Source of the DNA: Rickettsiales bacterium
GTDB taxonomy: Bacteria > Pseudomonadota > Alphaproteobacteria > Methylaequorales > Methylaequoraceae
Direction of reading: 5' to 3'
Assembly (NCBI GenBank): GCA_002691145.1
Contig: NZHE01000004.1
Coordinates: 1-45,475 of the forward strand
DNA length: 45,475 nt
In this document: positions 1-45,475 of the stretch, one piece after another
Layout of the letters: every line of letters begins with the position of its first letter
Numbering within the stretch: the first letter of the stretch is position 1
Notes under the pieces: model-generated
The model's database searches: none
What the model was told of the DNA's origin: nothing
Seen by the model: only the letters and a program-made list of their open reading frames with translations
Position numbers and translations under genes: made by a program

Positions 1-54
1 TCTTTCAAGAAAATTACTAGTAAACAAAAAATCCTTACTCCCATTCACTTTATA

Positions 55-114
55 TGGTACCCCTAGTCCGACTCGAACGGACAAGAACCGAAGTTCAACG
101 GATTTTGAATCAGT
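55..114 (-). repeat. Displaced tRNA-Leu 3' end, outer copy (att-like direct repeat)
   Basis: This 60-bp stretch matches the 3' part of the intact tRNA-Leu at 6469-6528, from the encoded CCA back to the anticodon stem. I count two mismatches: one in the variable-arm region and one in the anticodon stem. It is in the same orientation as the intact gene and has no 5' half, so it cannot be a working tRNA. Integrases that use tRNA 3' ends leave such fragments at the far end of the inserted DNA. It therefore marks the outer limit of the accessory region seen here, though more units could lie beyond the window. Confidence 0.88.
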
Positions 115-157
115 TGCGTTGGGTCTAAAACCCTTGACTACATTGACTTTCTAAAAT

Positions 158-356: not shown

Positions 357-402
357 TTTGTGGTACCGGATTTCGGAGGTTCAAATCCCCTCAGCCACCC
401 CA
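357..402 (+). repeat. tRNA-His(GTG) 3' half fragment, left copy
   Basis: The 46 bases begin in an anticodon loop reading tttgtggt (anticodon GTG). They continue with the 3' anticodon stem accgg, a T-arm with loop ttcaaat, the acceptor 3' strand cagccac, a C discriminator and encoded CCA. A C at position 73 is a hallmark of tRNA-His. No 5' half precedes it, so it is a fragment. The T-stem has one mismatch. It lies 68 bp before the first methyltransferase and has a degenerate partner after the second one (4268-4304). Confidence 0.72.
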
Positions 403-470: not shown

Positions 471-1667
471 ATGAAAAAAATTAATTTTGTTGACTTATTT
501 TGTGGATGCGGAGGATTGTCTGAGGGTTTTCTAAAACAAAAATTCATTCCGATTTGTCTATCTGATTTTGATAAATATTCTATGCAAACGTCAAGTAATC
601 GTCTAAAGTCTTTCGGCTATAAAAATAAAGAGATAGAAAATATTTGTAAGACCCTAGATTTAAATAATGACCCGAACATAAAAAAAATTTCTTCAAATAT
701 TTCAAAAGAATATAACATAGACGTTTTAATGGCTGGTATTCCTTGTCAAAGTTTTTCGTCTGTAGGAAAAGCTCAAGATAAAAATTCAATGAAATTTGAT
801 TCAAGAAATTATTTATACCTATCATTTTTAAAATTTGTAAACATTCTGAAACCAAAAATAGTGTTACTTGAAAATGTTTCAGGCCTTTTATCTTCTAAAC
901 CCGACGGAAAGTTAATAATTGATGATATTTTTTTTCAACTTCAATCTGCGGGATATAACGTGTTTACAGATAAAAAAAAAATTTTAATAAATGCAGTAGA
1001 GTTTGGTGTGCCTCAAGTAAGAAAAAGAGTTTTTATTTTTGCTTCTAGAAAAGATTTAAAGATTAAACCAATCGATTTTTATGAAAATTTAATAAAAACC
1101 CACTATTCACCAGATGATAAACACTCTAAACTAAAAAAATTTATTAATGTAGGTGAAGCAATTATGGACTTGCCAAAATTACTTCCAGGAAAAGGAAAAG
1201 AATTTTTTTCAAATTTTAAACCAAAGTTAAACAGATATTTAAAAAAAATTAGAGGTACTGATTATAAATATCTATATAATCATTTGGCAAGGGGCCACAA
1301 TTTCAATGATATGAAAAGATATGAGCTTTTGTCAAGAAATAAATGGCAACTTAAAGATTTATTAAACGGTTATGAACATCTAGTTCACCACGATCCTAAT
1401 CATTTTAAAAATAGATATACTGTTCAGTTAAAAGATTTGCCTGGCAGAACAATTGTTTCTCATTTATATAAAGATGGAAATTTATTCATTCATCCAGATT
1501 TTCAACAAAAAAGAACTTTTACAGTAAGAGAAGCAGCGCGAATTCAATCATTTCCAGATGATTTTATTTTTATGGGTTCTAGAACACAGCAATTTAAACA
1601 AGTTGGTAATGCTGTGCCACCTTTGTTATCAGAAAACTTTGCCACCTTAATAAGGGATTTATTATGA
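471..1667 (+). CDS. DNA (cytosine-5) methyltransferase, first of two in an R-M operon
   Basis: The 398-aa protein methylates C5 of cytosine in the site recognised by its restriction system. The full set of m5C methyltransferase motifs is visible. AdoMet-binding motif I is FVDLFCGCGG at residues 6-15. Motif IV is PCQSFS with catalytic Cys92, motif VI is ENV, motif VIII is QVRKRVF, motif IX is REAARIQSFP and motif X is QVGNAVPP. The stretch between VIII and IX should hold the target-recognition domain. Its stop overlaps the start of the HNH gene by 4 bp (ATGA), indicating translational coupling. A first methyltransferase made before the nuclease protects host DNA. The target site cannot be read from sequence. 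Confidence 0.93.
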   Translation: MKKINFVDLFCGCGGLSEGFLKQKFIPICLSDFDKYSMQTSSNRLKSFGYKNKEIENICKTLDLNNDPNIKKISSNISKEYNIDVLMAGIPCQSFSSVGKAQDKNSMKFDSRNYLYLSFLKFVNILKPKIVLLENVSGLLSSKPDGKLIIDDIFFQLQSAGYNVFTDKKKILINAVEFGVPQVRKRVFIFASRKDLKIKPIDFYENLIKTHYSPDDKHSKLKKFINVGEAIMDLPKLLPGKGKEFFSNFKPKLNRYLKKIRGTDYKYLYNHLARGHNFNDMKRYELLSRNKWQLKDLLNGYEHLVHHDPNHFKNRYTVQLKDLPGRTIVSHLYKDGNLFIHPDFQQKRTFTVREAARIQSFPDDFIFMGSRTQQFKQVGNAVPPLLSENFATLIRDLL

Positions 1668-3058
1668 TATTTTTTGCTGTTCCTAGTGTTGGACAACTAA
1701 AACCAGATACACTTTTTGGAAATGATGATCATTATGGTTTTCTTCAAACACTAGTAGGTAAAAAATATGATCGGAATATAGTTTCAAATTTATGCAAAGA
1801 ATATTACGGTAAAATTAATGATAGGTATTGGGATCAAATAATTACTATTTCAAATTTTCTAGCTTTTAAAAAACTTAATGAAAAAGAAAATTTTGTTAAT
1901 ATTCCTTTTTTAGATTTTGTTTCAGAGCAGTTTGATTTAGATCAAAAAATAATTTCAAGATTTTTATTTGAATACTATTTATTAATGTGGCAGTTTCCTC
2001 ACCCAATTAACTCAACACAAAAGATAAAGTTTTCTGGTCTTTTAGATATTAGTTCTTTTCGTTTAAGAAAATTTGAGGTTAATAAGCCTTACATATCAAT
2101 TCTAAAAATTTTGTTTAATTTAGAACAAATTGAAAAAGGTCAAGGATTTTTGAAGGATGATGAATTTTATTTTTTGGGAGTTGAGTTTTATAGAACTGAG
2201 GGTAAGATTCTCTTTTTAGATCAAGTTACTGAAATCTCAGAAAAAATTTATAAATTAAGAAAGAATGGTGGTTGGACACCTTTTGATGAAATTAAAAAAA
2301 AAAAACTTCCACATTTATCTTATCCAAAAGGTTTTTTAAGAAATTCTTTTTTTTTGAATGTAGAAAAAGATATTAAACTTAATAACTTTGCTGTTAAAAA
2401 TGAAAAAAATATAGAAAATCTATTAGAAGGTTTTTCTAATTTAAAATTTAATTTTAGTTCAACAATTAATCCTCGTGATCTGAAACTCTATAATAATTTT
2501 TCAAATTATTTGTATGATGATAATAAGTTTAAAGTCTTTGAAGATCTTATAAGTTTTGTTCAAAAAGACTTTAAGTTTTCAAATCCTTTAGTTGACTTTG
2601 CGGCTCAAAATTTTAATGAGGAGATTTCTAAAAAATATAGAATTGAAAAAATTTTGTCTAAAATTGGTAATTTAGACAGAAAAGTTATCAAAAGGCAAAG
2701 AGCTGAACAACACTATTTAAGACAATACATAATTGATGGAGAAACATGTGAGTGTGCTATTTGTCAAAAATCATTCCCTTCTAACTTAATTACTACCGCA
2801 CATATAAAAAAACGTCTAAAGTGTAATGATGATGAAAAAAGAGATACAAATGTAATTATGCCACTTTGTGATATGGGGTGTGATAGATTGTTTGAATTGA
2901 AGTTTTTGGTTGTTAATAGTGGTTTTGTTAAAAAGGGTAAAAATAAAAAAATTACCGACGATTTAGATAAATATATGAAGCCATTAATTGGAAAAAAATG
3001 TAAATACTACAATAATAAAACTAAAAAATATTTTGAGTTTCATGAGAATGAAAGTTAA
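1664..3058 (+). CDS. HNH-family type II restriction endonuclease (putative)
   Basis: This 464-aa protein sits between two cytosine methyltransferases and overlaps both. Residues 1-360 match no family I can name and probably carry DNA recognition. From residue 362 there is an HNH-type zinc/nuclease module: a CxxC knuckle (C364, C367), AHI with the putative metal or general-base His380, an Asn near 396, and a second Cys pair ending in GCDRLFE. That arrangement is common in HNH restriction enzymes, where the second zinc pair precedes D-x-LF-[DE]. There is no signal peptide or membrane segment. A lone homing-type HNH enzyme is possible, but the operon context strongly favours restriction. Confidence 0.82.
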   Translation: MIFFAVPSVGQLKPDTLFGNDDHYGFLQTLVGKKYDRNIVSNLCKEYYGKINDRYWDQIITISNFLAFKKLNEKENFVNIPFLDFVSEQFDLDQKIISRFLFEYYLLMWQFPHPINSTQKIKFSGLLDISSFRLRKFEVNKPYISILKILFNLEQIEKGQGFLKDDEFYFLGVEFYRTEGKILFLDQVTEISEKIYKLRKNGGWTPFDEIKKKKLPHLSYPKGFLRNSFFLNVEKDIKLNNFAVKNEKNIENLLEGFSNLKFNFSSTINPRDLKLYNNFSNYLYDDNKFKVFEDLISFVQKDFKFSNPLVDFAAQNFNEEISKKYRIEKILSKIGNLDRKVIKRQRAEQHYLRQYIIDGETCECAICQKSFPSNLITTAHIKKRLKCNDDEKRDTNVIMPLCDMGCDRLFELKFLVVNSGFVKKGKNKKITDDLDKYMKPLIGKKCKYYNNKTKKYFEFHENES

Positions 3059-4220
3059 ATTTATTGACCTTTTTTGTGGTGCTGGTGGCATGACACTTGG
3101 ATTTGAAAGAGCTGGTGCTAGATGTATTGGTGGTATCGAAATATCTAAGGCTGCATGTGTCACTCATTCTAAAAACTTTCCTCATTGTAAAGTCCTTGAT
3201 GAGGATATTTGTAACATAAAACCTGAGGAATTTAAAAAACGTTTAAATATCGAAAATGAGGTAGATATAATTGTTGGTGGTCCCCCTTGTCCAACTTTTT
3301 CAACAATTGGTCAAGCTAAAATAAAATCTGTTGGAGGAAATGTTGACACTGACAAAAGAAATAAACTATTTGTTAACTTTCTAGAATATGTAAATTTCTT
3401 TCAACCTAAATTCTTTGTAATGGAGAATGTTCCTAATTTTCTAACGAAAAATAATGGTGCGATCTTTCAAACTACAAAAAATATGATTAAAAACTTAAAA
3501 GGAAATTATAAAATAATCGAACCTGTTCAAATTTTAAATTCTGTAAATTATGGTGTTCCTCAAACTAGAAGGAGAATGTTTTTGATAGGTTGTAAAAACA
3601 ATTACTCATATCAATATCCCAAAATAACTCATCATAATGAATGTCATAATAATAAACAATTTGAGTTATTTAATAAAACAAATAAGCTTAAGCCACCTGT
3701 TACCCTCTTTGATGCAATATCAGATTTACCAATCATTACAGATGATTGGAGAATTGATCAGGTTAAATACTCAAGGAATAATAAATTATCTTTTTACCAA
3801 ATGATGATGAGGGAAAAAACCTCTAATACAGTTAGAAATAATAGGTGCAGATTGACTAATGACAGAGCAAAAATTCTTTTTAAAGAAATGAAGCAAGGAT
3901 CAAAATATATGGACCTACCAAAAGAGATTAGAAAAATACTTCCATTTAGAGAAGATATATTCCAAGATAGGTTAAAAAAATTAAACTACAATAAACCCTC
4001 TTGGACAATTATTGCTCATTTAGGCATGGATGGGTATATGTTCATTCATCCAGAACAAATAAGAACTATTTCTGTTAGGGAAGCTGCTAGAATTCAGTCT
4101 TTTCCGGATGATTTTATATTTTATGGAAATATGACTGAGACTTTTGTTCAAATTGGTAATGCTGTACCATGTATTCTTGCTGAAAAAATAGCTACAGCAA
4201 TTTTAGATTCATTGAATTAA
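3048..4220 (+). CDS. DNA (cytosine-5) methyltransferase, second of two in an R-M operon
   Basis: This is another complete m5C methyltransferase, 390 aa from the chosen start. Motif I is FIDLFCGAGG, motif IV is GGPPCPTFS with catalytic Cys81, motif VI is MENV, motif VIII is QTRRRMF, motif IX is REAARIQSFP and motif X is QIGNAVP. The frame is open from 2988, but the ATG at 3048 gives the usual short lead into motif I and an 11-bp overlap with the endonuclease gene; an ATG at 3042 is equally possible. Two different m5C enzymes in one system usually mean an asymmetric site, each modifying one strand. The gene ends 48 bp before a tRNA-His-like fragment. Confidence 0.92.
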   Translation: MKVKFIDLFCGAGGMTLGFERAGARCIGGIEISKAACVTHSKNFPHCKVLDEDICNIKPEEFKKRLNIENEVDIIVGGPPCPTFSTIGQAKIKSVGGNVDTDKRNKLFVNFLEYVNFFQPKFFVMENVPNFLTKNNGAIFQTTKNMIKNLKGNYKIIEPVQILNSVNYGVPQTRRRMFLIGCKNNYSYQYPKITHHNECHNNKQFELFNKTNKLKPPVTLFDAISDLPIITDDWRIDQVKYSRNNKLSFYQMMMREKTSNTVRNNRCRLTNDRAKILFKEMKQGSKYMDLPKEIRKILPFREDIFQDRLKKLNYNKPSWTIIAHLGMDGYMFIHPEQIRTISVREAARIQSFPDDFIFYGNMTETFVQIGNAVPCILAEKIATAILDSLN

Positions 4221-4267: not shown

Positions 4268-4304
4268 TTTGTGGTACCTAAGGCTGGGGGTTCAAATCCC
4301 CTCA
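4268..4304 (+). repeat. tRNA-His(GTG)-like 3' half fragment, right copy (degenerate)
   Basis: Like the copy at 357-402, this starts with tttgtggtacc (anticodon loop GTG and part of the stem). After a diverged spacer it shares ttcaaatcccctca of the T-arm. The acceptor strand and CCA are lost, replaced by AT-rich sequence. It is in the same orientation as the left copy, so the two form a direct-repeat pair enclosing exactly the three R-M genes. Confidence 0.6.
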
Positions 4305-4458: not shown

Positions 4459-4518
4459 TGGTACCCCTAGTCCGACTCGAACGGACATGAACCGAAGTTC
4501 AACGGATTTTGAATCCGT
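4459..4518 (-). repeat. Displaced tRNA-Leu 3' end, inner copy (att-like direct repeat)
   Basis: These 60 bases are identical to 6469-6528, the 3' part of the intact tRNA-Leu(CAA), and in the same orientation. Identity stops in the anticodon stem, after which the sequence diverges completely. The 10-15 bp before it also resemble the flank of the intact copy. It is the junction between the two accessory units. The rest of the 4221-4628 gap holds the tRNA-His fragment, the gtgtcaatgt motif and a short ctcaca-rich stretch near 4560-4585, with no gene. Confidence 0.92.
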
Positions 4519-4628: not shown

Positions 4629-6413
4629 TTAATTTAAATCTTCATCAAATCGAAATTCTAATTCCTCTATGTGTGTCTTTACGTCCTCCGGAGGTAATAT
4701 GACGGTGTCTTCTCCTTTTCTAATAAAAAAATCTTTTACCCAATATTTAGAATCAAATTTATTTTTTTTTTCATTAAGATTTGCACTATTAAAAATCTTC
4801 TGATCGGGATAGATATAAGTACCAGGTTTTTTAAATTTATTTTTAATTACTAGGTTTAAATAAGTAGTTCCTTGAAATTTTTTATAATCACATTCAATTA
4901 AATGGTATCTAGGGAGAAGTCTTGATAAGTGGTCTAAAAGACTTTGTTTTATTTTTTCTTTTGTTTTTAAATCATCCTCATTATTTCTTTTGAAAAACTT
5001 AATATCTTCAACAATTCCATTTGGTTTTGAATCATTTGTAATTCCTAGTCGAATTACTTGGTTTATAGTTGAAGTATTATTTAAAAATCCACACATCTTT
5101 TTTGCAATCTCAATGGCAGTAGCACATTGTACTTTACTTTTATATTGTTCTTTTGAATAATTTTTTGCTTCTTTTTCATCATACTTGAAAAATATTCTAT
5201 TTTTAAATTCCTGATGTGTACTTTCTCCTGATTTGATCCATTCCTCTTCTTCATCAATCTGAGACCTAAATCCCTCCAAGAGTTTGTGTTTCTGAATTGA
5301 TACAGTATTTGGGAATGGAATGATTTTTTTTTGCTCTTTGCTGACTTTTTTTTTTGAAGAACTTTTATTTTCAGAAAAAGAGTCAGCGTTCGAAGAAAAA
5401 ATAACCTCAGAAAATTCCAAATTATTTTCCACATGTTCAACTTCTTCCTGATCATTTTCATATCCAGATTTTTTTAAAAATTTTTTAGATTCTTTTTTAT
5501 TTACCTCTGAGTCACCTTCCATAAATGCTGATATAGCCAGTGTTTTAGATAATTTTAGACAGAACTCTTTGTATACTTCAACTTCAGAAACTTCATCATA
5601 GATTGTAGAAATATATTGTAACGAATCATAGAGATGTTTCTTAGAGGAATGTATATACTTTTGTAGTTTTATTTTTTCAGATCTTTCATCTTCACCGTAA
5701 TGTATTTTTGCGATTACAATAAATGCTAAATTTTGAATCAAGTGCTCTAAAATCCAATCTTCACCTAACTCATGAGCCTTCTCCAATAATTCAACACCTT
5801 TCTCTGTACTTTCCTCTACACCATCTCCTCTAGTAAAGCAGTAACCTAAACTTGCAAAAGCCTCTGGATATTCATTTTGTATAGATTTTTCATACCAACT
5901 TACAGCTTTATAAAAATCAGGTTCTGGTTTTTTATATTTGTGATTCCATTTATAACAAGTGCCATAATAAAAATAATCTCCTATCGTATTTTGTGCATAA
6001 CCATCACCTTTTTCAGCAGCTTCAAGATAAAGTTCAAATGCTTTTATGTCTGAATCATCATTTGCTTCTTCTTTTAATTTGTCAGCTTTTTTGATAATTT
6101 GTTTGATTGAAAGTTTCTTCAAACCTTCAGGTTTTAACTTTTTACCAAGTCTCTCAAATTTTTCTAATACAGCTTTTGATTTTTTATAAAACTTATTTAA
6201 TTTTTTTTCTTCACACCATTCTGTAAGAGCAATCACTAATCCAGGGATCTTTTCCAATAGAAATTTATATAAATTTGAATGTTTACCAATAGAATAAATA
6301 AGTCTTCTTTGGTATGGATTAAAAGCTTTATGCTTTGCCGTCAATGACGAAAGTTCTAACATCATATTTCTTTCATCTTGATTTAAAGGATTTATAAAAG
6401 TTTTTCCGGACAT
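4629..6413 (-). CDS. Sel1-like repeat protein with C-terminal AlbA_2/Schlafen-type domain (candidate defence gene)
   Basis: This 594-aa protein appears to have three parts. Residues 1-110 are helical, basic and unrecognised. Residues about 120-240 contain Sel1-like repeats of the A-x2-Y-x2-A-x6-A-x3-[IL]-G type, expected to form a helical binding scaffold. After a charged Ser/Lys-rich linker, residues about 396-580 resemble the AlbA_2 (divergent AAA-4, Schlafen-core) domain. The signs are ESTHQEFK, CGFLNN, LGITND with a following GI, and near the end FFIRKGEDTVILPPEDV. Schlafen-core domains bind or cut nucleic acid. There is no signal peptide. It is alone in a tRNA-bounded unit beside an R-M operon, which suggests antiphage function. 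Domain calls are by eye; the role is inferred. Confidence 0.72.
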   Translation of the reverse strand: MSGKTFINPLNQDERNMMLELSSLTAKHKAFNPYQRRLIYSIGKHSNLYKFLLEKIPGLVIALTEWCEEKKLNKFYKKSKAVLEKFERLGKKLKPEGLKKLSIKQIIKKADKLKEEANDDSDIKAFELYLEAAEKGDGYAQNTIGDYFYYGTCYKWNHKYKKPEPDFYKAVSWYEKSIQNEYPEAFASLGYCFTRGDGVEESTEKGVELLEKAHELGEDWILEHLIQNLAFIVIAKIHYGEDERSEKIKLQKYIHSSKKHLYDSLQYISTIYDEVSEVEVYKEFCLKLSKTLAISAFMEGDSEVNKKESKKFLKKSGYENDQEEVEHVENNLEFSEVIFSSNADSFSENKSSSKKKVSKEQKKIIPFPNTVSIQKHKLLEGFRSQIDEEEEWIKSGESTHQEFKNRIFFKYDEKEAKNYSKEQYKSKVQCATAIEIAKKMCGFLNNTSTINQVIRLGITNDSKPNGIVEDIKFFKRNNEDDLKTKEKIKQSLLDHLSRLLPRYHLIECDYKKFQGTTYLNLVIKNKFKKPGTYIYPDQKIFNSANLNEKKNKFDSKYWVKDFFIRKGEDTVILPPEDVKTHIEELEFRFDEDLN

Positions 6414-6468: not shown

Positions 6469-6555
6469 TGGTACCCCTAGTCCGACTCGAACGGACATGA
6501 ACCGAAGTTCAACGGATTTTGAATCCGTCGCGTCTACCAATTCCGCCATAGGGGC
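6469..6555 (-). tRNA. tRNA-Leu(CAA), intact
   Basis: The 87-nt gene folds as a type II tRNA. The acceptor strands are GCCCCTA and TAGGGGT, with discriminator A and encoded CCA. The anticodon loop is TTCAAAA (anticodon CAA), the variable arm is long, and the T-arm is built around TTCGAGT. It is the only complete copy; its 3' 60 bp recur at 4459 and 55. The tRNA is the insertion target of the accessory region and remains intact, as expected when the incoming element carries an identical 3' end. Confidence 0.96.
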
Positions 6556-7760: not shown

Positions 7761-8271
7761 AAGCAAAAACTACGAAAAAGTAATAAGGGTTGATCATGCA
7801 GGTGAATTTGGAGCTCAAAAAATTTATGCAGGTCAAATTAAATTTTCTCGAGATAAGAGACTAATTAAAGAATTAAAATCTATTGCAGAGCAAGAACAAA
7901 AACATTTGGATTTTTTTGAAGCGAAAATGTTATCAAAAAGAATACGTCCTACTCTGATGACGCCATTATGGGAGATTGGAGGCTATACTCTTGGTGCTAT
8001 AACAGCTGTATTAGGAAAAGAATATGTGATGGCCTGCACTGACGCTGTTGAAAGTATCATAGTAAAACATTACAAAAATCAAATGACTAAAAAAGAAGTG
8101 AAAGATGACAAGCAACTTTTAAGAAAAATAAAATTATTTATGGAAGAAGAAGCTGAACATCAAAAATCTGGTGAAAATAATACAAAATCAAATAGTTTTA
8201 GAATTAGAATTTTTAAGAAACTTGTTCAACAATTGACTTTATCAGCTATTAAGATATCGGAAAAAATTTGA
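7753..8271 (+). CDS. coq7: Demethoxyubiquinone hydroxylase (Coq7 family)
   Basis: Coq7 hydroxylates demethoxyubiquinone late in ubiquinone synthesis, using a di-iron centre. The 172-aa protein is the usual short bacterial length. The diiron ligands appear as two E-x2-H style repeats: DHAGE at residues 14-18, EQEQKHLDFFE at about 47-57, AVESIIVKHY in the middle, and EEEAEHQ near 131-137. It follows dsbB with an 8-bp overlap. Its quinone product is the electron acceptor of DsbB, which makes the pairing sensible. Confidence 0.92.
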   Translation: MTKSKNYEKVIRVDHAGEFGAQKIYAGQIKFSRDKRLIKELKSIAEQEQKHLDFFEAKMLSKRIRPTLMTPLWEIGGYTLGAITAVLGKEYVMACTDAVESIIVKHYKNQMTKKEVKDDKQLLRKIKLFMEEEAEHQKSGENNTKSNSFRIRIFKKLVQQLTLSAIKISEKI

Positions 8272-8290
8272 AATCTTAATAGATAAAATT

Positions 8291-8974
8291 TTAATTTATT
8301 AACATTTTTTTTTTATAAATTATATTACCTGTAGTTGCAGAATCCGACTTTTCTTCTCTTTCATATTTTATAAGTCCCAAATCTTTTGCGAACCAAGTAT
8401 TAGAAATTATTTCAATATTAATTTTATCTAAAGGTGGACCCGGAAGAAAACTAGTTTTTCCATAACTAGCAACTTTTATACAATTTCTGATTTTTCTACC
8501 ATTAATAGAAATTGTTTCATTGGTTTTAACAATTTTATTTGTTAATTCGAAAGGTAAATTTGTATTATAAATCCTATCAAATCCTAATACTAGTTTAATA
8601 GTTGTTATATCTTTTGTAATCCATTCTGTGCCCTCTAACAAAGGAAATGCTAAAATGAGGTTAGAGTTAACATTATCTTTTAAATCTTCATAATCAGTAA
8701 CATTTACATTACTAATGCTATTTTTTTGGATACCTTTTTTATTTTTTGAATACAGAATAATTTCACCATCATTTTTTACAGCAGGTAGGAAGTTTTTATG
8801 CATTGGTAAAAAATGATAACTCTGTCTATAAGTTTTCTCAATATTATCTTTATTTTTAAAAGTAACTTCATAAAATACAGTCTCTCCAGAATTTCCAATT
8901 AAATTATTTGTGTTCTTTTCGCAAGAAATACAAAAAAGGATTAAAATTAATAAATTTAACTTATTTTTAAACAT
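8291..8974 (-). CDS. Predicted lipoprotein of unknown function
   Basis: This 227-aa protein begins with a hydrophobic leader ending in LFCISCEK, a plausible lipobox with the lipidated Cys at about residue 18, so it is probably membrane-anchored in the periplasm. The rest is mixed alpha/beta and charged, with no domain I recognise. It starts 3 bp after the gmhA-like gene and is probably co-transcribed with it. It converges with coq7, leaving only 19 bp between stops and no clear terminator hairpin. Confidence 0.75.
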   Translation of the reverse strand: MFKNKLNLLILILFCISCEKNTNNLIGNSGETVFYEVTFKNKDNIEKTYRQSYHFLPMHKNFLPAVKNDGEIILYSKNKKGIQKNSISNVNVTDYEDLKDNVNSNLILAFPLLEGTEWITKDITTIKLVLGFDRIYNTNLPFELTNKIVKTNETISINGRKIRNCIKVASYGKTSFLPGPPLDKINIEIISNTWFAKDLGLIKYEREEKSDSATTGNIIYKKKMLIN

Positions 8975-38790: not shown

Positions 38791-41700
38791 TTAATTGCAA
38801 AACCCGTCTGTCATTATACAAGGACTGACTGATATAGATTGGTCAGTTGACGTTACTGTTACTCTTCTGCTATGACCACCCTTTGCTGAATGAGTAGTTT
38901 TTGAAGGAAACAGTTTGTCATTTATATTAGAAAGTTCTTGCAATCTTAGAAGTATGCCAGCTCTAGTTCTAGATCCAGGCCTTCCCCTTAGGATATTGAA
39001 GGTTAAATTTCCAAAGTCATAATTTGAGGCAAGGCCTGAACCGTCACCAATAACTAATGTCCCTCTATTAATCGTATAAGAACCCAATTCATCTGAATTA
39101 TTAATATATCCTTCACCGCTGAGAAGAAGAGACTCGCCCAATGCCAAGTTTCCAAAGCTTAATTCTGAAGAATTAACTGATAAGCTACCGCCTGGATTAC
39201 GCCTTCCTGTTAAATTAAATAATCTTTTTGATACAATTAATGTAGCATCAGATATATAATAATTTGAATTATTCGAACGCAAGCTTCCAATTGTAACCCC
39301 TTTGGATCCAACAGATGCTGAGCTAAATGAACCAGTTCCAGACATTTGAACAGAATCTCCTGATATAAGCCCAGTAAAACGTGAAAAATCAGCGCCTTGA
39401 GCTGATGTCGTTCCATTATAAGCTCTTGTTCCAGATGCAGTTATTGATTTTGGCGTAATACTTAATTGAAGAGTTCCACCTGAGAGAGTATAATTACTAG
39501 CATTACCTGAATTACTACCTAAGGTTAGGCTACCTACATTAACTGATTTATTTGTTTCTACATCTTTAGAACCTAAAACACCTGTGCCTGACAATGTGAG
39601 TGTTTCACCACTAATAAGATTTCCGAATGATCCTAAGTCGCTTGACGATGCATTCGTTGTTCCATCATAAATTCGTGTTCCAGATAAATTAACAGGTCTT
39701 TTATTGATGTTAGCTTGGTGAGTTCCTCCAGTTAAAGTGTAATTCGATTCAGAACCCGTTCCGCTTGATAAAGCTAAACTACCTAATGTAACAGATTTTC
39801 CATTTGCCGCACCTGAAGAACCAATACTACCAGAACCTGAAAGTGTTAATGTCTCATTTCCAATCAAATTTTCAATTGAGGGATCGTCGGAGCCACTGAT
39901 ATTTGTGGTACCGTCATAAACTCTAGTTAAAGTCACATTGATCGGTCTTTTGCTTATAGTGAGAGTTGCTCCATTTAAATTGTAGTTTGTAGCTGCACCA
40001 CTTCCATCTGCCAGAGCGAGATCACCTAAAGCTACTACTTTGTTTGATTCAACAAGTGCAGATAAAACAGTACCTGATCCAGAAACAGAAAGTGTTTCAC
40101 TCCCAATTAAGCCTGAGAAGGTACTGAAACTTCCAGAATTTGCTACGTTTGTTCCGTCATAGACTCTAGAACCACTTAGGCTTATGTCCTTTTGCGTAAC
40201 ATCCAATAAAAGAGTGCCCCCACTTAGAGTATAATTGTCTGATTCGCCTGAACCATCAGAAAGAGCAAGAGTCCCAACACTTACTGACTTATCGCTACCA
40301 ACTGCAGCTGAGGCAAGGATTCCTGTTCCGCTCAAGTTCAGTGTTTCCCCACTGACCAAGTTACCAAGAGTTGTTAAATCACTTGCTGTTGCATTTGTTG
40401 ATCCGTTATACACGCGCGTTCCGCCTAAATCCACAGGTCTTCTTGTAATATTAATTTGATGCGTTCCACTAGAAAGAGTGTAATTTGAAACTGAGCCACT
40501 TCCGTCAGACAATGCAATCGTTCCCAATGTTAATGTTTTGTTGTTTTCAGCTGTGCTTGAGGAAACTGAACCAGTTCCACTCAAAGATAGTGTTTCTCCT
40601 GTAACAATATTTCCAAATGTATTTATATCTAAAGCAGTTACTGAGGTTGTCCCATTATAAGTTTTGGAACCTGAAAGATTAATAACTCTTTTAGTTACGG
40701 AAATAGTGCCACTTGAAAGATTATAATTTGAAGCCGCTCCAGACCCATTTGCTAAAGTGAAAGTTCCCAGTGAAATAGTTTTGTTAGACCCTACAGCACC
40801 TGATGATATAGTGCCCGATCCAGTAATAGTTAGTGATTCTCCTGAAACAAGGTTGCTAAATGTAGAGATACTTGAATTACTTACAATATTGTTTCCGTCA
40901 TATGACTTTGACCCACTTATTGTAATATTTCTAGTTGTTACGCCTAGTTCAAGAGTGCCTCCGCTTAAAGTGTAATTGTCTGATTCTCCTGAACCATCAG
41001 AAAGGGCAAGAGTCCCAATACTTACTGACTTATTACTACCAACTGCAGCTGAGGCGAGAGTTCCTGTTCCGCTCAAGTTAAGCGTTTCTCCACTGACTAA
41101 GTTACCAAGAGTCGTTAAGTCACTTGCTATTGCATTCGTTGATCCATCGTAGACTCTTGTTCCACTTAAATTCACAGGCCTTTGAACAATTGTTAGAGTA
41201 GCTGATGATAAATTATAATTTGATGAAACCCCGGTTCCCGATATAAGGCTAAGATCATTAAATGTAACGTTTTTGTTTGACCCCGGAGTAGCAGTACCAA
41301 CAGAGCCAGTTCCCGATAATGTGAGTGATTCCGAACCAACAAGATTACTAAAGCTTGTCAGATCTGAAGGGCTTGCATTAGTTGTTCCGTCATAAACTCT
41401 TGAACCAGAAATAGTTATTTGTCTTTGACTTATACTCAACTGATGAGTTCCGCCAGTCAATGTATAATTTGATGCTGTTCCTGATCCATTACTCAAGGAT
41501 AACGACCCAACAGAAATTTCTTTGTTACTTCCAACTGCTGCCGATAGCACTGAACCAGTTCCACTTAAGTTTAAAGTCTCTCCAGAAACAAGATTTGACG
41601 AGCTTAGGTCTGAGGCTGCAGCATTTGTTGAGCCATCATAGGCTCTTGACCCACTAAGATTTAAAGGTCTTTGGAATATTTCAAAACTCGTTGTATAATT

Positions 41701-44700
41701 ACTCAGGGTATAGTTGCCTGATCCTGAGCCAGTAAGAGCAAGTGAACCAGTTGACACGGTCTTGTTGTCCCCAACTGCTGCTGAGGTAACTGAACCACTT
41801 CCCGTTAAAGACACAGCCTCACCACTCACCAGATTTGTTAAAGTAAGAGTTGATCCATTTACAGTTGTCGTCCCATCATAAATTTTAGATCCCGTAACAT
41901 TTACTGATAGCTGAGATATGTCAAAGGTGTGAGTACCTCCAGATAAAGTATAATTAGAAGCATTCCCTGATCCGTCAGAAAGGCTTAAAGAGCCTAAAGT
42001 TAAGCTTTTATTCATCCCTGCATTTGCATTCGTTACAGTTCCTGACCCTAATAGAATAAGCGATTCTCCTGAAACAATGTTTCCAAATGTAGAAATATCA
42101 GAACTTGAAACTGTTGTATTTCCGTCAAATGCTCTTATTCCATCAAGGCTTAAAATTCTTTGATTAATATTAATTGTTATATTTCCTAAAGAATAGTTTG
42201 ATGCTGCTCCAGAACCATTTGCAAGGGTTAAGGTCTGATGAGAAACTGATTTATTGGTTCCTACTGAAGAGCTTGCTACTGATCCAATACCTGAGAGCGA
42301 GAGAGTTTCACCACTTACAAGATTTGTAAAGGAAGTAAGATTAGATGCAGCTGCGTTTGTAGTTCCATCATAAAACTTAGAACCTTTGACAGTAACTGAG
42401 CGCTTAGTTATTGCCATTGATAGGGTGCCTGTAAGTGAATAATTTGATGCACTGGAGGAGCCATCTGAAATTTCAAGACTACCAATATTTGTTATAGTTT
42501 GCGATCCAACAGCAGCTGAGCCAAGAGTTCCTGTCCCTGACAATGAAATGTTTTCGCCTGAAACCAAGTTACTCAACGAGAGGTCTGAGGCGGCTGCATC
42601 TGTTGTGCCATCATATACTCTGCTTCCAGATAGATTAACTGGTCTTAAAGTAATGTCTGCTGAAATAGTATTTGCAATACTATAATTAGATGCTGATCCA
42701 CTTCCGTCTAACAGTTGGAGTGATGTATTAGTTACAGTTTTATCATTCCCAATATTAGCAGAAGCTACAGTTCCTGAACCCGTCATTGATAGAGTTTCTC
42801 CGCTTACGATACCAGAAAATGTTGATAAATTTGATCCTTGAATAACATTAGTTCCGTCATAAACTTTGCTGCCTGAAATAGTAAGAGATTTTTGAGTAAT
42901 ATCTAGTGTAGCTGATCCTAGTGTGTAATTTGCAGAACTGCCTGTTCCATTTGATAAAGAGAGTGATCCTATTGTAACAGATTTTGATGAGCCAACATTT
43001 GCTGATGATACTGTTCCTGATCCCGTTATATCTAATGTCTCACCGCTTACAAGATTATTGAATACATTCAAATCAGATGAATTAACAGTGGTTGAACCAT
43101 TGTATGACCTACTTCCAGACATACTAATAGATCTCTGAGAAACGGAAAGCTGGTGTGTGCCACCATTTAAAGTGTAATTAGAAGCTACACCAGTGTCATT
43201 GTTGATCGAAAGTGTATTAAGAGATACTGATTTATTATTACCCACATTTGCACTTGTAATTGTGCCATTACCAGACAAATCAAGAGTTTCAGAACCAACT
43301 AAGTTAGACAAAGTTAAATCAGATGAAACTGCATTAGTTGTTCCGTCATAAACTCTAGTACCACTAATGTTTAAAATTCTTGGCGTTATATTTAGTATTT
43401 TTGTTGATCCATTAAGTGTGTAGTTGGATGCTAACCCTCCATTTGAGCCATCTCCAAGGGAAAGTGACCCCTGAGATACATCGTAATTATTGGCTACTGC
43501 CGAAGAAGTTATTGTTCCAGCGCCGCTAAGAACGAGTGTCTCTGACCCTATCAAGCCACTAATCGTTAAGTCAGACGCAGTGGCTTGGGAGGAACCATCG
43601 TAAGTTCGCGAACCACTGAGAGAGACTGCAACAGGATTTACTGAAAGAGAAGCAGATGAAATAGAATAATTTGAGGCGCTACCGGATCCATTTTGCAAGG
43701 CTAGTGTGCCTAAAGTTACTGATTTTGAATTGCCAGTATTTGCTGATGAAACTGATCCCGACCCTGAGAGACCTAAAGTTTCACCACTTACTATATTACT
43801 AAATGTGTTTAAGTCGGAATTACTTACAGTTGTATTTCCGTTATACAATCTAGATCCTGATAATGTTAATGGTCGTGTTGTAACAGAAAGGGTAAAAGAG
43901 CCTCCTGAAAGTGTGTAATTTGAAGCGGCTCCAGAACCATTGCTTATTGAAAATCCATCTGATGTAACACTTTTATTGTTTTCAACTTCAGCACTGCTAA
44001 TTGTACCTGATCCAGAAAATGTAATTGTTTCTGACCCTACTAAGTTGTTTAGCGTCAGATCTGAAGATGTAACATTGGTTGACCCATTATAGGCTCTAGA
44101 ACCAGAGGCATTTAGCACTCTTTGTGTTATTTCGAATGATGTATTTCCAAATGTGTAGTTAGATGCCGTTCCGCTCCCAGTATTTCCTAACGCCAATGTA
44201 CCAAGTGTAATTGCTTTATCTAAACCTACTGATGAACTTGATACAGAGCCTGAACCACTTATAGTTAAACTCTCACCAGAAACAAGATTGCCTAGTGTGA
44301 GGCTACTAGCTGTAACAGAAGTATTTCCGTCATATGTTTTGTTACCAGTAATGTTAACCCACCTTTGTGTTACATCAAATGTACCGCTTCCTAAGGTATA
44401 ATTACTTGCTAGGCCTGTTCCATTTTGTAGACTCAGTGTTCCTGTTGTAACACTCTTACCCGCTCCGACATTTGCTGAGGATATGGTGCCTAAGCCCGCG
44501 ATGCTCAATGATTCACCTGTTGCTAAATTTGAAATCGTTGTTAAATCTGATCCATTAACCGAGGTAGCTCCATCATAAACTTTTGTTCCACTATATGTTA
44601 CCGTTCTTGAGGTAACATCGTAAGTATGAGTGCCACCTATTAGAGTGTAATTTGATGCAGAGCCTGATCCATTTGAAAGCGATAATGTATTTAATGAAAT

Positions 44701-45475
44701 CGGTTTGTTTATTCCAATATTACCCGAGGTTACCGTGCCGAAGCCCGATAAGGAAAGGGTTTCTGATCCAACTAAATTAGTTATTGTGAGGTCTGACGAA
44801 TTTGAATTAGTCGTTCCATCGTAAACCCTAGATCCATCTAAAGATAAAATCCTCGGCGTTATCGATATGATACTAGATCCTCCAGAAAGAGTGTAATTAG
44901 CGGCCAATCCACCATTGGAACCATTTTGTAATGTCAAACCTGATAAATTTGTTAAGGGTTTATTATCACCTACATTGGCATTTTCAACAACACCATTCCC
45001 AGATAGGGTTAGAGTTTCACTGCCAACTAGATTATTTATTGTTGGTAGGTCAGCAGCTATTGCGGTTGAAGAGCCATTATATTGTCTAGAACCCCCGCTT
45101 AGACTGACAACTCTTTTATTGATAGTAAAGTTGTGGGTCCCCCCTGTGAGTGTATAGTTTGAAGCAGACCCACTACTATTATCAATACTGATTCCGGACA
45201 GATTATTAATAGTATAACTTCCTGCATTGGCCGAGCTTGTAGAAGCTGTTCCTGAATGAACTAGTATTTCACTTCCTGCCAGATTAGATAGTGTAATTGT
45301 ATTTGCAAGTGCATTAGTATTAGCATCATAGACTTTCGATCCTGAAGAATTCAAAGGACGTTGAGTAACAGTAAGCTGATGCGTTCCACCTGATAGAGTG
45401 TAGTTTGCGGCTAGCCCGCCATTGGAACCATCAGCAAGCGCTAGTGTTCCCACAGACACTGTCTTGTTTGATCCA
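38791..45475 (-). CDS. Giant YDG-repeat surface protein / adhesin, C-terminal part (5' end beyond window)
   Basis: The frame is open to the window edge, with in-frame codons continuing the repeat up to base 45475, so the true start lies outside. At least 2,227 residues are visible. Apart from the last 65, they are tandem repeats of about 81 aa built on [LI]SGSR-x-YDGTTN-x4-SDL, NLVSGETL-x-LSG-G, SNYTLSGGT, as in the YDG/MBG-type domains of filamentous-haemagglutinin-like exoproteins. The product is Ser/Gly/Thr/Asn-rich and low in Lys, unlike its neighbours, and base composition is visibly less AT-rich. The tail has RGRPGSRTRAG and ends CIMTDGFCN. There is no autotransporter barrel, so two-partner or other export is likely. 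Role in attachment is inferred. Confidence 0.88.
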   Translation of the reverse strand, partial: GSNKTVSVGTLALADGSNGGLAANYTLSGGTHQLTVTQRPLNSSGSKVYDANTNALANTITLSNLAGSEILVHSGTASTSSANAGSYTINNLSGISIDNSSGSASNYTLTGGTHNFTINKRVVSLSGGSRQYNGSSTAIAADLPTINNLVGSETLTLSGNGVVENANVGDNKPLTNLSGLTLQNGSNGGLAANYTLSGGSSIISITPRILSLDGSRVYDGTTNSNSSDLTITNLVGSETLSLSGFGTVTSGNIGINKPISLNTLSLSNGSGSASNYTLIGGTHTYDVTSRTVTYSGTKVYDGATSVNGSDLTTISNLATGESLSIAGLGTISSANVGAGKSVTTGTLSLQNGTGLASNYTLGSGTFDVTQRWVNITGNKTYDGNTSVTASSLTLGNLVSGESLTISGSGSVSSSSVGLDKAITLGTLALGNTGSGTASNYTFGNTSFEITQRVLNASGSRAYNGSTNVTSSDLTLNNLVGSETITFSGSGTISSAEVENNKSVTSDGFSISNGSGAASNYTLSGGSFTLSVTTRPLTLSGSRLYNGNTTVSNSDLNTFSNIVSGETLGLSGSGSVSSANTGNSKSVTLGTLALQNGSGSASNYSISSASLSVNPVAVSLSGSRTYDGSSQATASDLTISGLIGSETLVLSGAGTITSSAVANNYDVSQGSLSLGDGSNGGLASNYTLNGSTKILNITPRILNISGTRVYDGTTNAVSSDLTLSNLVGSETLDLSGNGTITSANVGNNKSVSLNTLSINNDTGVASNYTLNGGTHQLSVSQRSISMSGSRSYNGSTTVNSSDLNVFNNLVSGETLDITGSGTVSSANVGSSKSVTIGSLSLSNGTGSSANYTLGSATLDITQKSLTISGSKVYDGTNVIQGSNLSTFSGIVSGETLSMTGSGTVASANIGNDKTVTNTSLQLLDGSGSASNYSIANTISADITLRPVNLSGSRVYDGTTDAAASDLSLSNLVSGENISLSGTGTLGSAAVGSQTITNIGSLEISDGSSSASNYSLTGTLSMAITKRSVTVKGSKFYDGTTNAAASNLTSFTNLVSGETLSLSGIGSVASSSVGTNKSVSHQTLTLANGSGAASNYSLGNITININQRILSLDGIRAFDGNTTVSSSDISTFGNIVSGESLILLGSGTVTNANAGMNKSLTLGSLSLSDGSGNASNYTLSGGTHTFDISQLSVNVTGSKIYDGTTTVNGSTLTLTNLVSGEAVSLTGSGSVTSAAVGDNKTVSTGSLALTGSGSGNYTLSNYTTSFEIFQRPLNLSGSRAYDGSTNAAASDLSSSNLVSGETLNLSGTGSVLSAAVGSNKEISVGSLSLSNGSGTASNYTLTGGTHQLSISQRQITISGSRVYDGTTNASPSDLTSFSNLVGSESLTLSGTGSVGTATPGSNKNVTFNDLSLISGTGVSSNYNLSSATLTIVQRPVNLSGTRVYDGSTNAIASDLTTLGNLVSGETLNLSGTGTLASAAVGSNKSVSIGTLALSDGSGESDNYTLSGGTLELGVTTRNITISGSKSYDGNNIVSNSSISTFSNLVSGESLTITGSGTISSGAVGSNKTISLGTFTLANGSGAASNYNLSSGTISVTKRVINLSGSKTYNGTTSVTALDINTFGNIVTGETLSLSGTGSVSSSTAENNKTLTLGTIALSDGSGSVSNYTLSSGTHQINITRRPVDLGGTRVYNGSTNATASDLTTLGNLVSGETLNLSGTGILASAAVGSDKSVSVGTLALSDGSGESDNYTLSGGTLLLDVTQKDISLSGSRVYDGTNVANSGSFSTFSGLIGSETLSVSGSGTVLSALVESNKVVALGDLALADGSGAATNYNLNGATLTISKRPINVTLTRVYDGTTNISGSDDPSIENLIGNETLTLSGSGSIGSSGAANGKSVTLGSLALSSGTGSESNYTLTGGTHQANINKRPVNLSGTRIYDGTTNASSSDLGSFGNLISGETLTLSGTGVLGSKDVETNKSVNVGSLTLGSNSGNASNYTLSGGTLQLSITPKSITASGTRAYNGTTSAQGADFSRFTGLISGDSVQMSGTGSFSSASVGSKGVTIGSLRSNNSNYYISDATLIVSKRLFNLTGRRNPGGSLSVNSSELSFGNLALGESLLLSGEGYINNSDELGSYTINRGTLVIGDGSGLASNYDFGNLTFNILRGRPGSRTRAGILLRLQELSNINDKLFPSKTTHSAKGGHSRRVTVTSTDQSISVSPCIMTDGFCN
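38989..45475 (-). repeat. Tandem array of about 26 repeats of about 243 bp inside the adhesin gene
   Basis: Successive Y-[DN]-G units recur every 80-82 residues (about 243-247 bp). I count 26 anchor motifs, the last one degenerate (GRRNPGGS). Most repeats are diverged at DNA level, but two (40211-40440 and 40952-41180, three units apart) are nearly identical, pointing to recent duplication or gene conversion. Some units carry an NGGLAANY insertion before the terminal strand. The array probably extends beyond the window. Confidence 0.88.

Follow-up and report, generated by a model that had tools for sequence, protein, structure and literature searches.

In the 45,475-nucleotide stretch of Rickettsiales DNA analyzed here (hereafter the window), we identified a gene whose product combines Sel1 repeats with a C-terminal AlbA_2 domain of the Schlafen type, and which is the sole sizeable gene of a 2-kb unit lying between tRNA-Leu(CAA) and a 59-bp copy of part of that tRNA. 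This architecture is real and uncommon, and a literature search returned no paper on a Sel1-Schlafen fusion or on a defense protein of this kind. Since bacterial Schlafen defense has been proposed already, what is new is the Sel1-Schlafen architecture itself. We assign a probability of about 0.5 to the reading that the protein serves in phage defense as sensor and effector in a single polypeptide, in which the Sel1 repeats would perceive a trigger and the Schlafen RNase would respond by cleaving RNA. The gene and the parts of its product are as follows.

4629..6413, minus strand: coding sequence of the Sel1-AlbA_2 (Schlafen) fusion, stop codon included (ORF list; Pfam)
6069..6413, minus strand: N-terminal predicted-helical region, residues ~1–115, without a named domain (alignment, Pfam, low-confidence model)
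5736..6068, minus strand: Sel1-repeat region, residues ~116–226 (PF08238; solved Sel1 proteins; well-modeled part)
5250..5381, minus strand: charged low-complexity linker, residues ~345–388 (translation; low pLDDT in the full-length model)
4632..5246, minus strand: C-terminal SLFN_AlbA_2 domain, residues 390–594 (PF04326; AlphaFold2; Foldseek)

According to the ORF list and its translation, the gene (4629–6413, minus strand) has an ATG start and encodes 594 amino acids; a 126-amino-acid ORF at 5081–5461 merely overlaps it in another frame. The Sel1 family PF08238 matches the whole protein at 36.7 bits against a curated cut-off of 30.7 (E = 5e-9), with the best unit at residues 189–217. Solved Sel1 proteins align over residues 124–219 (best E = 1e-12), and we therefore estimate the number of recognizable repeats at about two to three. 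The original prediction had placed Sel1 repeats at residues 120–240; the repeats are indeed present, in the slightly shorter span of ~124–219, and the charged linker it expected between the Sel1 and AlbA_2 parts is evident in the translation. Residues ~1–115 also align with both of the full-length homologues described below. A full-length AlphaFold2 model, built from a three-row alignment, gave good confidence in the Sel1 part and was poor elsewhere (pLDDT 40), so we relied on a model of the C-terminal domain alone.

Several lines of evidence identify that domain. Scanned by themselves, the C-terminal 205 residues match PF04326 at 27.7 bits (cut-off 25.3; E = 4e-6); the family was not called by Pfam when the whole protein or the genome was scanned. 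Both full-length homologues match it more strongly (E = 4e-11 and 2e-9). The motifs of the window protein lie at E397-S-T-H-Q-E402-F-K, CGFLN (441–445), LGITND (456–461), and FFIRKG (562–567). The AlphaFold2 model of the C-terminal part, computed from a 15-row AlbA_2 alignment that itself contained other AlbA_2 domains, reached a mean pLDDT of 90.3 and a pTM of 0.87. Foldseek comparison of this model with the PDB returned 3lmm (probability 1.00), 2kyy (0.97), and SLFN13 (5yd0; 0.80). Every high-probability match was an AlbA_2 or Schlafen structure, with weak E-values (best 0.0097) and low TM-scores (0.31–0.43), and a viral fold library yielded no convincing match. A profile of 15 AlbA_2 members that included the window protein retrieved SLFN14 (1e-16), SLFN13 (4e-14), and bacterial CbCash (8e-14) from the PDB, along with 2kyy, SLFN5, SLFN11, and SLFN12. 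The predicted AlbA_2/Schlafen core from residue ~396 is thus borne out by the Pfam match, the model, and the Foldseek search, and the resemblance to 3lmm, 2kyy, and 5yd0 disposes of the concern that a predicted structure might show no Schlafen/AlbA_2 similarity.

We then compared the putative active site with that of rat SLFN13, in which the triad consists of E205, E210, and D248, and in which the E205A and E210A variants are absolutely inactive (PMC5862951). Two sites in the window protein correspond to it.

5208..5225, minus strand: E397-x4-E402 pair, aligned with SLFN13 E205/E210 (alignment to 5yd0)
5031..5036, minus strand: N460-D461, with Asn at the SLFN13 D248 position and Asp next to it (alignment)

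The acidic motif had been described as E-x3-EFK; its actual spacing is E-x4-E-F-K (E397...E402-F-K). The two glutamates, and K404 with them, are present in every one of the 15 aligned AlbA_2 domains. The third carboxylate position, which in the 5yd0 alignment (D248) falls three residues past the glycine of GVDD, varies among these domains and is Asp in both full-length homologues. The window protein accordingly keeps two of the three catalytic carboxylates of SLFN13, the third being Asn460. Because the third position varies, and because the fold need not cut, as illustrated by SLFN5, which keeps the triad yet cut no substrate tried (PMC8789055), we regard nuclease activity of the window protein as likely rather than established. 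The replaced carboxylate and the example of SLFN5, together with the annotation of AlbA_2 as a DNA-binding domain (PMC6299218), could instead point to a non-catalytic regulator, in which AlbA_2 would bind DNA or RNA and Sel1 would recruit partners, the protein controlling its neighbors or a helper element. We consider such a role doubtful, since both essential glutamates are invariant and the unit contains no other gene to control, its neighbors being a restriction-modification (R-M) set and housekeeping genes.

A tree of 39 AlbA_2 domains from the phylum places the domain in a broader context. The position of AlbA_2 at the very C-terminus of long proteins requires two changes on this tree, against a shuffled mean of 6.6, and six of the seven C-terminal domains group together (81/95). 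The window domain forms a long branch (2.22 changes per column); adding it to the C-terminal group is not rejected (p-AU 0.43), so that its membership there is allowed by the tree. Two of the C-terminal AlbA_2 proteins (L137 and L149) also carry a GmrSD_N restriction part, which scores above the curated cut-off in one of them and below it in the other, and their AlbA_2 domains group with those of both Sel1-AlbA_2 homologues. Because the C-terminal domains cluster and two of them carry GmrSD_N parts, the pattern fits a modular effector tail. The length of the window branch and the substituted active-site position would also be expected of a decaying passenger gene without present function. That the 594-codon frame is intact, that the EFK, FLN, G, and R motifs are conserved, and that the protein is co-linear over its full length with homologues at 28% identity make decay very improbable.

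The setting of the gene is defined by a repeat derived from tRNA-Leu(CAA).

6469..6555, minus strand: tRNA-Leu(CAA), intact, serving as attachment site and lying at the array's right end (ARAGORN)
6470..6528, no strand: copy of the attachment (att) repeat within the tRNA, from the anticodon arm to the 3' end (repeat comparison)
4460..4518, no strand: att repeat left of the Sel1-AlbA_2 unit, 59 bp identical to the tRNA copy (repeat comparison)
56..116, no strand: att repeat left of the R-M unit, 97% identical (repeat comparison)

Including the tRNA itself, the genome holds six copies of the repeat: three on the contig of the window (C25; at 56, 4460, and 6470) and three on a second contig, C7 (29–92, 2320–2376, and 3546–3609). 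The claim that the gene is the single cargo of a tRNA-bounded unit held up, with tRNA-Leu(CAA) called by ARAGORN on one side, the exact 59-bp copy on the other, and no other substantial gene between them. Neither an exact repeat of 59 bp nor a domain match that exceeds the cut-off and is stronger still in diverged homologues could plausibly arise by chance. The gene starts ~55 bp downstream of the tRNA in the same orientation, and because no terminator-like site was seen between the two, transcription may read through from the tRNA promoter; scans for promoters and terminators remained at chance level. No integrase or tyrosine recombinase gene lies within the array, which is split by a contig break, making a missing piece possible. 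The whole assembly contains two Phage_integrase genes (C8:232169 and C7:73622), both outside the array, which are probably XerC and XerD.

C25 and C7 are very probably the two ends of one island, because relatives place the tRNA-Leu, a variable gene, and the alkaline phosphatase gene in a row. In relatives G013 and G018, a DedA-like gene is followed by tRNA-Leu(CAA), one variable gene, and the same alkaline phosphatase gene that on C7 sits just past the repeat copy at 3546; in G007, the variable gene at the tRNA-Leu site is related to a 237-amino-acid gene of C7. To the left of the first repeat in the window, the bases agree with those of C7 beside the copy at 2320, ambiguous letters aside, and the DNA past the repeat differs. 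Window positions 1–116 and C7 positions 2320–2440 (locus L059) share this lead-in to the repeat, which is followed by the R-M genes in the former and by a methyltransferase and an amine-oxidase-like gene in the latter. The explanation is either that two orders of the cassettes are present side by side in the sampled population or that the assembly was interrupted at the repeat. Locus L059 also contains two paralogous NAD-binding/amine-oxidase-like genes (220–1197 and 7809–8786), one in the tRNA-Leu array and the other ~7 kb away past the alkaline phosphatase gene; the array copy seems to be a duplicate of the nearby chromosomal gene.

The unit next to the Sel1-AlbA_2 cassette within the window carries a type II R-M set and fragments of a different tRNA.

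471..4220, plus strand: type II R-M unit, between the repeats at 56 and 4460
471–1667, plus strand: first 5mC methyltransferase (PF00145; PADLOC MTase_II)
1664–3058, plus strand: putative HNH-type nuclease, 464 amino acids (weak HNH match, E = 0.065)
3048–4220, plus strand: second 5mC methyltransferase (PF00145; PADLOC MTase_II)
357..402, plus strand: tRNA-His(GTG) 3'-half fragment, left of the R-M genes (match to the tRNA-His on C17)
4268..4304, plus strand: partial tRNA-His 3'-half fragment, right of the R-M genes (match to the tRNA-His on C17)

The two methyltransferases are recognized by Pfam (PF00145, E = 3e-58 and 2e-68) and by PADLOC (MTase_II, 2e-83 and 2e-100). The 464-amino-acid protein between them is barely visible to family models and has a C-x2-C...H...C pattern near its C-terminus; it is probably a diverged HNH restriction enzyme. 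The unit carries traces of two tRNA attachment sites, both of which begin at the anticodon loop, as if the R-M set, either before its entry into the tRNA-Leu array or afterward, had also been attached at another tRNA. Toward the other end of the window (38791–45459, minus strand), and running close to the contig end, we noted a 2222-amino-acid ORF with degenerate repeats of ~80 residues (of the GSRVYDGTTNA... type, resembling MBG/YDG adhesin repeats).

Of the 31 further genomes in the same bacterial family, only two yielded full-length homologues of the fusion, which show 28% identity over the whole length and the same order of parts. An alignment-based search of named genomes placed both in uncultured Alphaproteobacteria isolates, AG-349-G20 and AG-892-K07, and found no others; a single-sequence scan of the named genomes found no homologue. 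Among 385 sampled genomes of the class, a profile search detected no full-length homologue outside the family, the matches there being to Sel1 only, and a profile of the C-terminal part, run against 142 genomes of the class, added no member. Phages, plasmids, and viral contigs likewise yielded no full-length homologue, and the plasmid matches were Sel1-only. No model in the 2023 copy of PADLOC fits the Sel1-AlbA_2 protein.

Both homologues are located downstream of tRNA-Thr(TGT) and are preceded by an HD-domain gene and a small gene, the latter encoding a helix-turn-helix protein in G013. In the G006 island, the genes of a type III R-M system come next (PADLOC E = 0 for mod), and with them genes for a UvrD helicase, a PD-(D/E)XK nuclease, and a tyrosine integrase that has an arm-binding domain. 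The G013 island encodes RecQ, a second C-terminal AlbA_2 protein (E = 3e-16), an HNH protein, an HSP90-type ATPase, a radical-SAM-like protein, and a SNF2 helicase (ZorD-like, 7e-46), along with a PD-(D/E)XK nuclease and an integrase that are both very similar to those of G006. We also looked for tRNA repeats bounding these tRNA-Thr islands, and the stretches searched contained no such repeat. Two features of the G013 island are recorded here in their own right. The second C-terminal AlbA_2 protein (L022, 13258–15183, minus strand; 641 amino acids) has a different, helical-looking N-terminal part and is encoded two genes from the Sel1-AlbA_2 homologue. In the same island (L155, 6466–13506, minus strand), the genes for the HSP90-type ATPase, the radical-SAM-like protein, two Pfam-less, ParB-like-looking proteins, and the SNF2 helicase form a run that may represent an undescribed multi-gene system.

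The homologues thus lie outside housekeeping contexts, in variable islands that carry genes for R-M, helicases, and nucleases; occurrence in housekeeping contexts alone had been named as the finding that would speak against a defense role. All three members lie in variable regions beside R-M or other nuclease or helicase genes, in a tiny sample and with other cargo at the tRNA-Leu hotspot as well: in relatives or elsewhere in the genome, that site holds methyltransferases, a histidine phosphatase, and an amine-oxidase-like oxidoreductase. Given the small sample and such ordinary cargo, location alone is weak evidence for defense. The mixed cargo, and the precedent of SLFN13 as a tRNA/rRNA-cutting enzyme of translational control (PMC5862951), would also suit a general stress or toxin-like RNase, or a cassette maintenance function, not aimed at phage. 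We give this little credence, as the unit encodes no antitoxin-like partner and all three members have R-M or other nuclease or helicase genes among their neighbors.

Our preferred reading, a Sel1 sensor joined to a Schlafen RNase effector, would work as follows. The N-terminal helical part and the Sel1 repeats would form a protein-binding scaffold, and the C-terminal AlbA_2 domain would act as a metal-dependent nuclease that uses E397 and E402, its most likely substrate being tRNA or rRNA. In the resting state, the scaffold would hold the nuclease inactive. Once the scaffold bound a phage (or stress) protein, or oligomerized on one, the nuclease would be set free and translation would stop, as has been suggested for other Schlafen proteins from bacteria. 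The gene would be moved, with no other cargo, by a small non-autonomous cassette whose insertion site is the anticodon arm of tRNA-Leu(CAA). Nuclease activity, the RNA target, the role of Sel1 as sensor or gate, phage defense, and cassette mobility are what we infer from sequence and genomic context. A precedent for such a role comes from work on BREX systems (PMC12839542), which, citing a preprint on bacterial Schlafens, describes Schlafen-linked prokaryotic systems that can be antiphage modules cleaving tRNAs. Because only three members are known here, no PADLOC model fits, the hotspot also takes non-defense cargo, and the third catalytic position is Asn, the single-gene defense system with a phage-sensing Sel1 scaffold that the original prediction described is likewise something we infer rather than observe. 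More tentatively still, the three proteins may represent a new type of single-gene immune receptor, in which a Sel1-repeat sensor switches on its own C-terminal Schlafen RNase, and which marine alphaproteobacteria exchange in two settings, by itself in tRNA-Leu cassettes and within integrase-bearing tRNA-Thr R-M islands. If the defense reading is true, uncultured bacteria combine the fold of animal antiviral Schlafens with a repeat-sensor architecture in a single gene. A gene of the defense type would then be moving by itself, beside an R-M cassette, in a minimal cassette that is flanked by tRNA sequence and lacks an integrase, and this would help to account for the exchange of defenses between small genomes.

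Compared with the PF04326 family (SLFN11, SLFN13, and SLFN14; bacterial 2kyy and 3lmm), the window protein has the same fold and the same E-x4-E-F-K and FxN motifs, as well as the GVxD-region glycine and a conserved Arg close to the end. It differs from SLFN13, whose core is a pseudo-dimer (PMC5862951), in having a single AlbA_2 lobe, C-terminal and placed after Sel1 repeats, as well as Asn at the D248 position and extra insertions between motifs. With the bacterial Schlafen proteins reported as antiphage in 10.1101/2025.07.24.666596, as cited in PMC12839542, it has in common a Schlafen-type domain in a prokaryotic protein; such a domain is also what it shares with CbCash (PDB 9ylu), considered here by its PDB name and sequence match alone. 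The GmrSD-type proteins L137 and L149 resemble it in that a restriction-type or other N-terminal part is followed by AlbA_2 at the very C-terminus, this N-terminal part being a restriction-enzyme module in theirs and Sel1 repeats in the window protein. At the level of the cassette, one parallel is the additive flexible genomic islands at tRNA-Lys in 'Ca. Methylopumilus' (PMC10872708), which are likewise arrays of small units each ended by a copy of the tRNA 3' end, whereas the window array uses tRNA-Leu(CAA), has a 59-bp rather than a 20-bp repeat, and belongs to an alphaproteobacterium. Tycheposons, too, are tRNA-anchored cargo islands in pelagic genome-reduced bacteria (PMC10872708), from which the window array differs in carrying no tyrosine recombinase.
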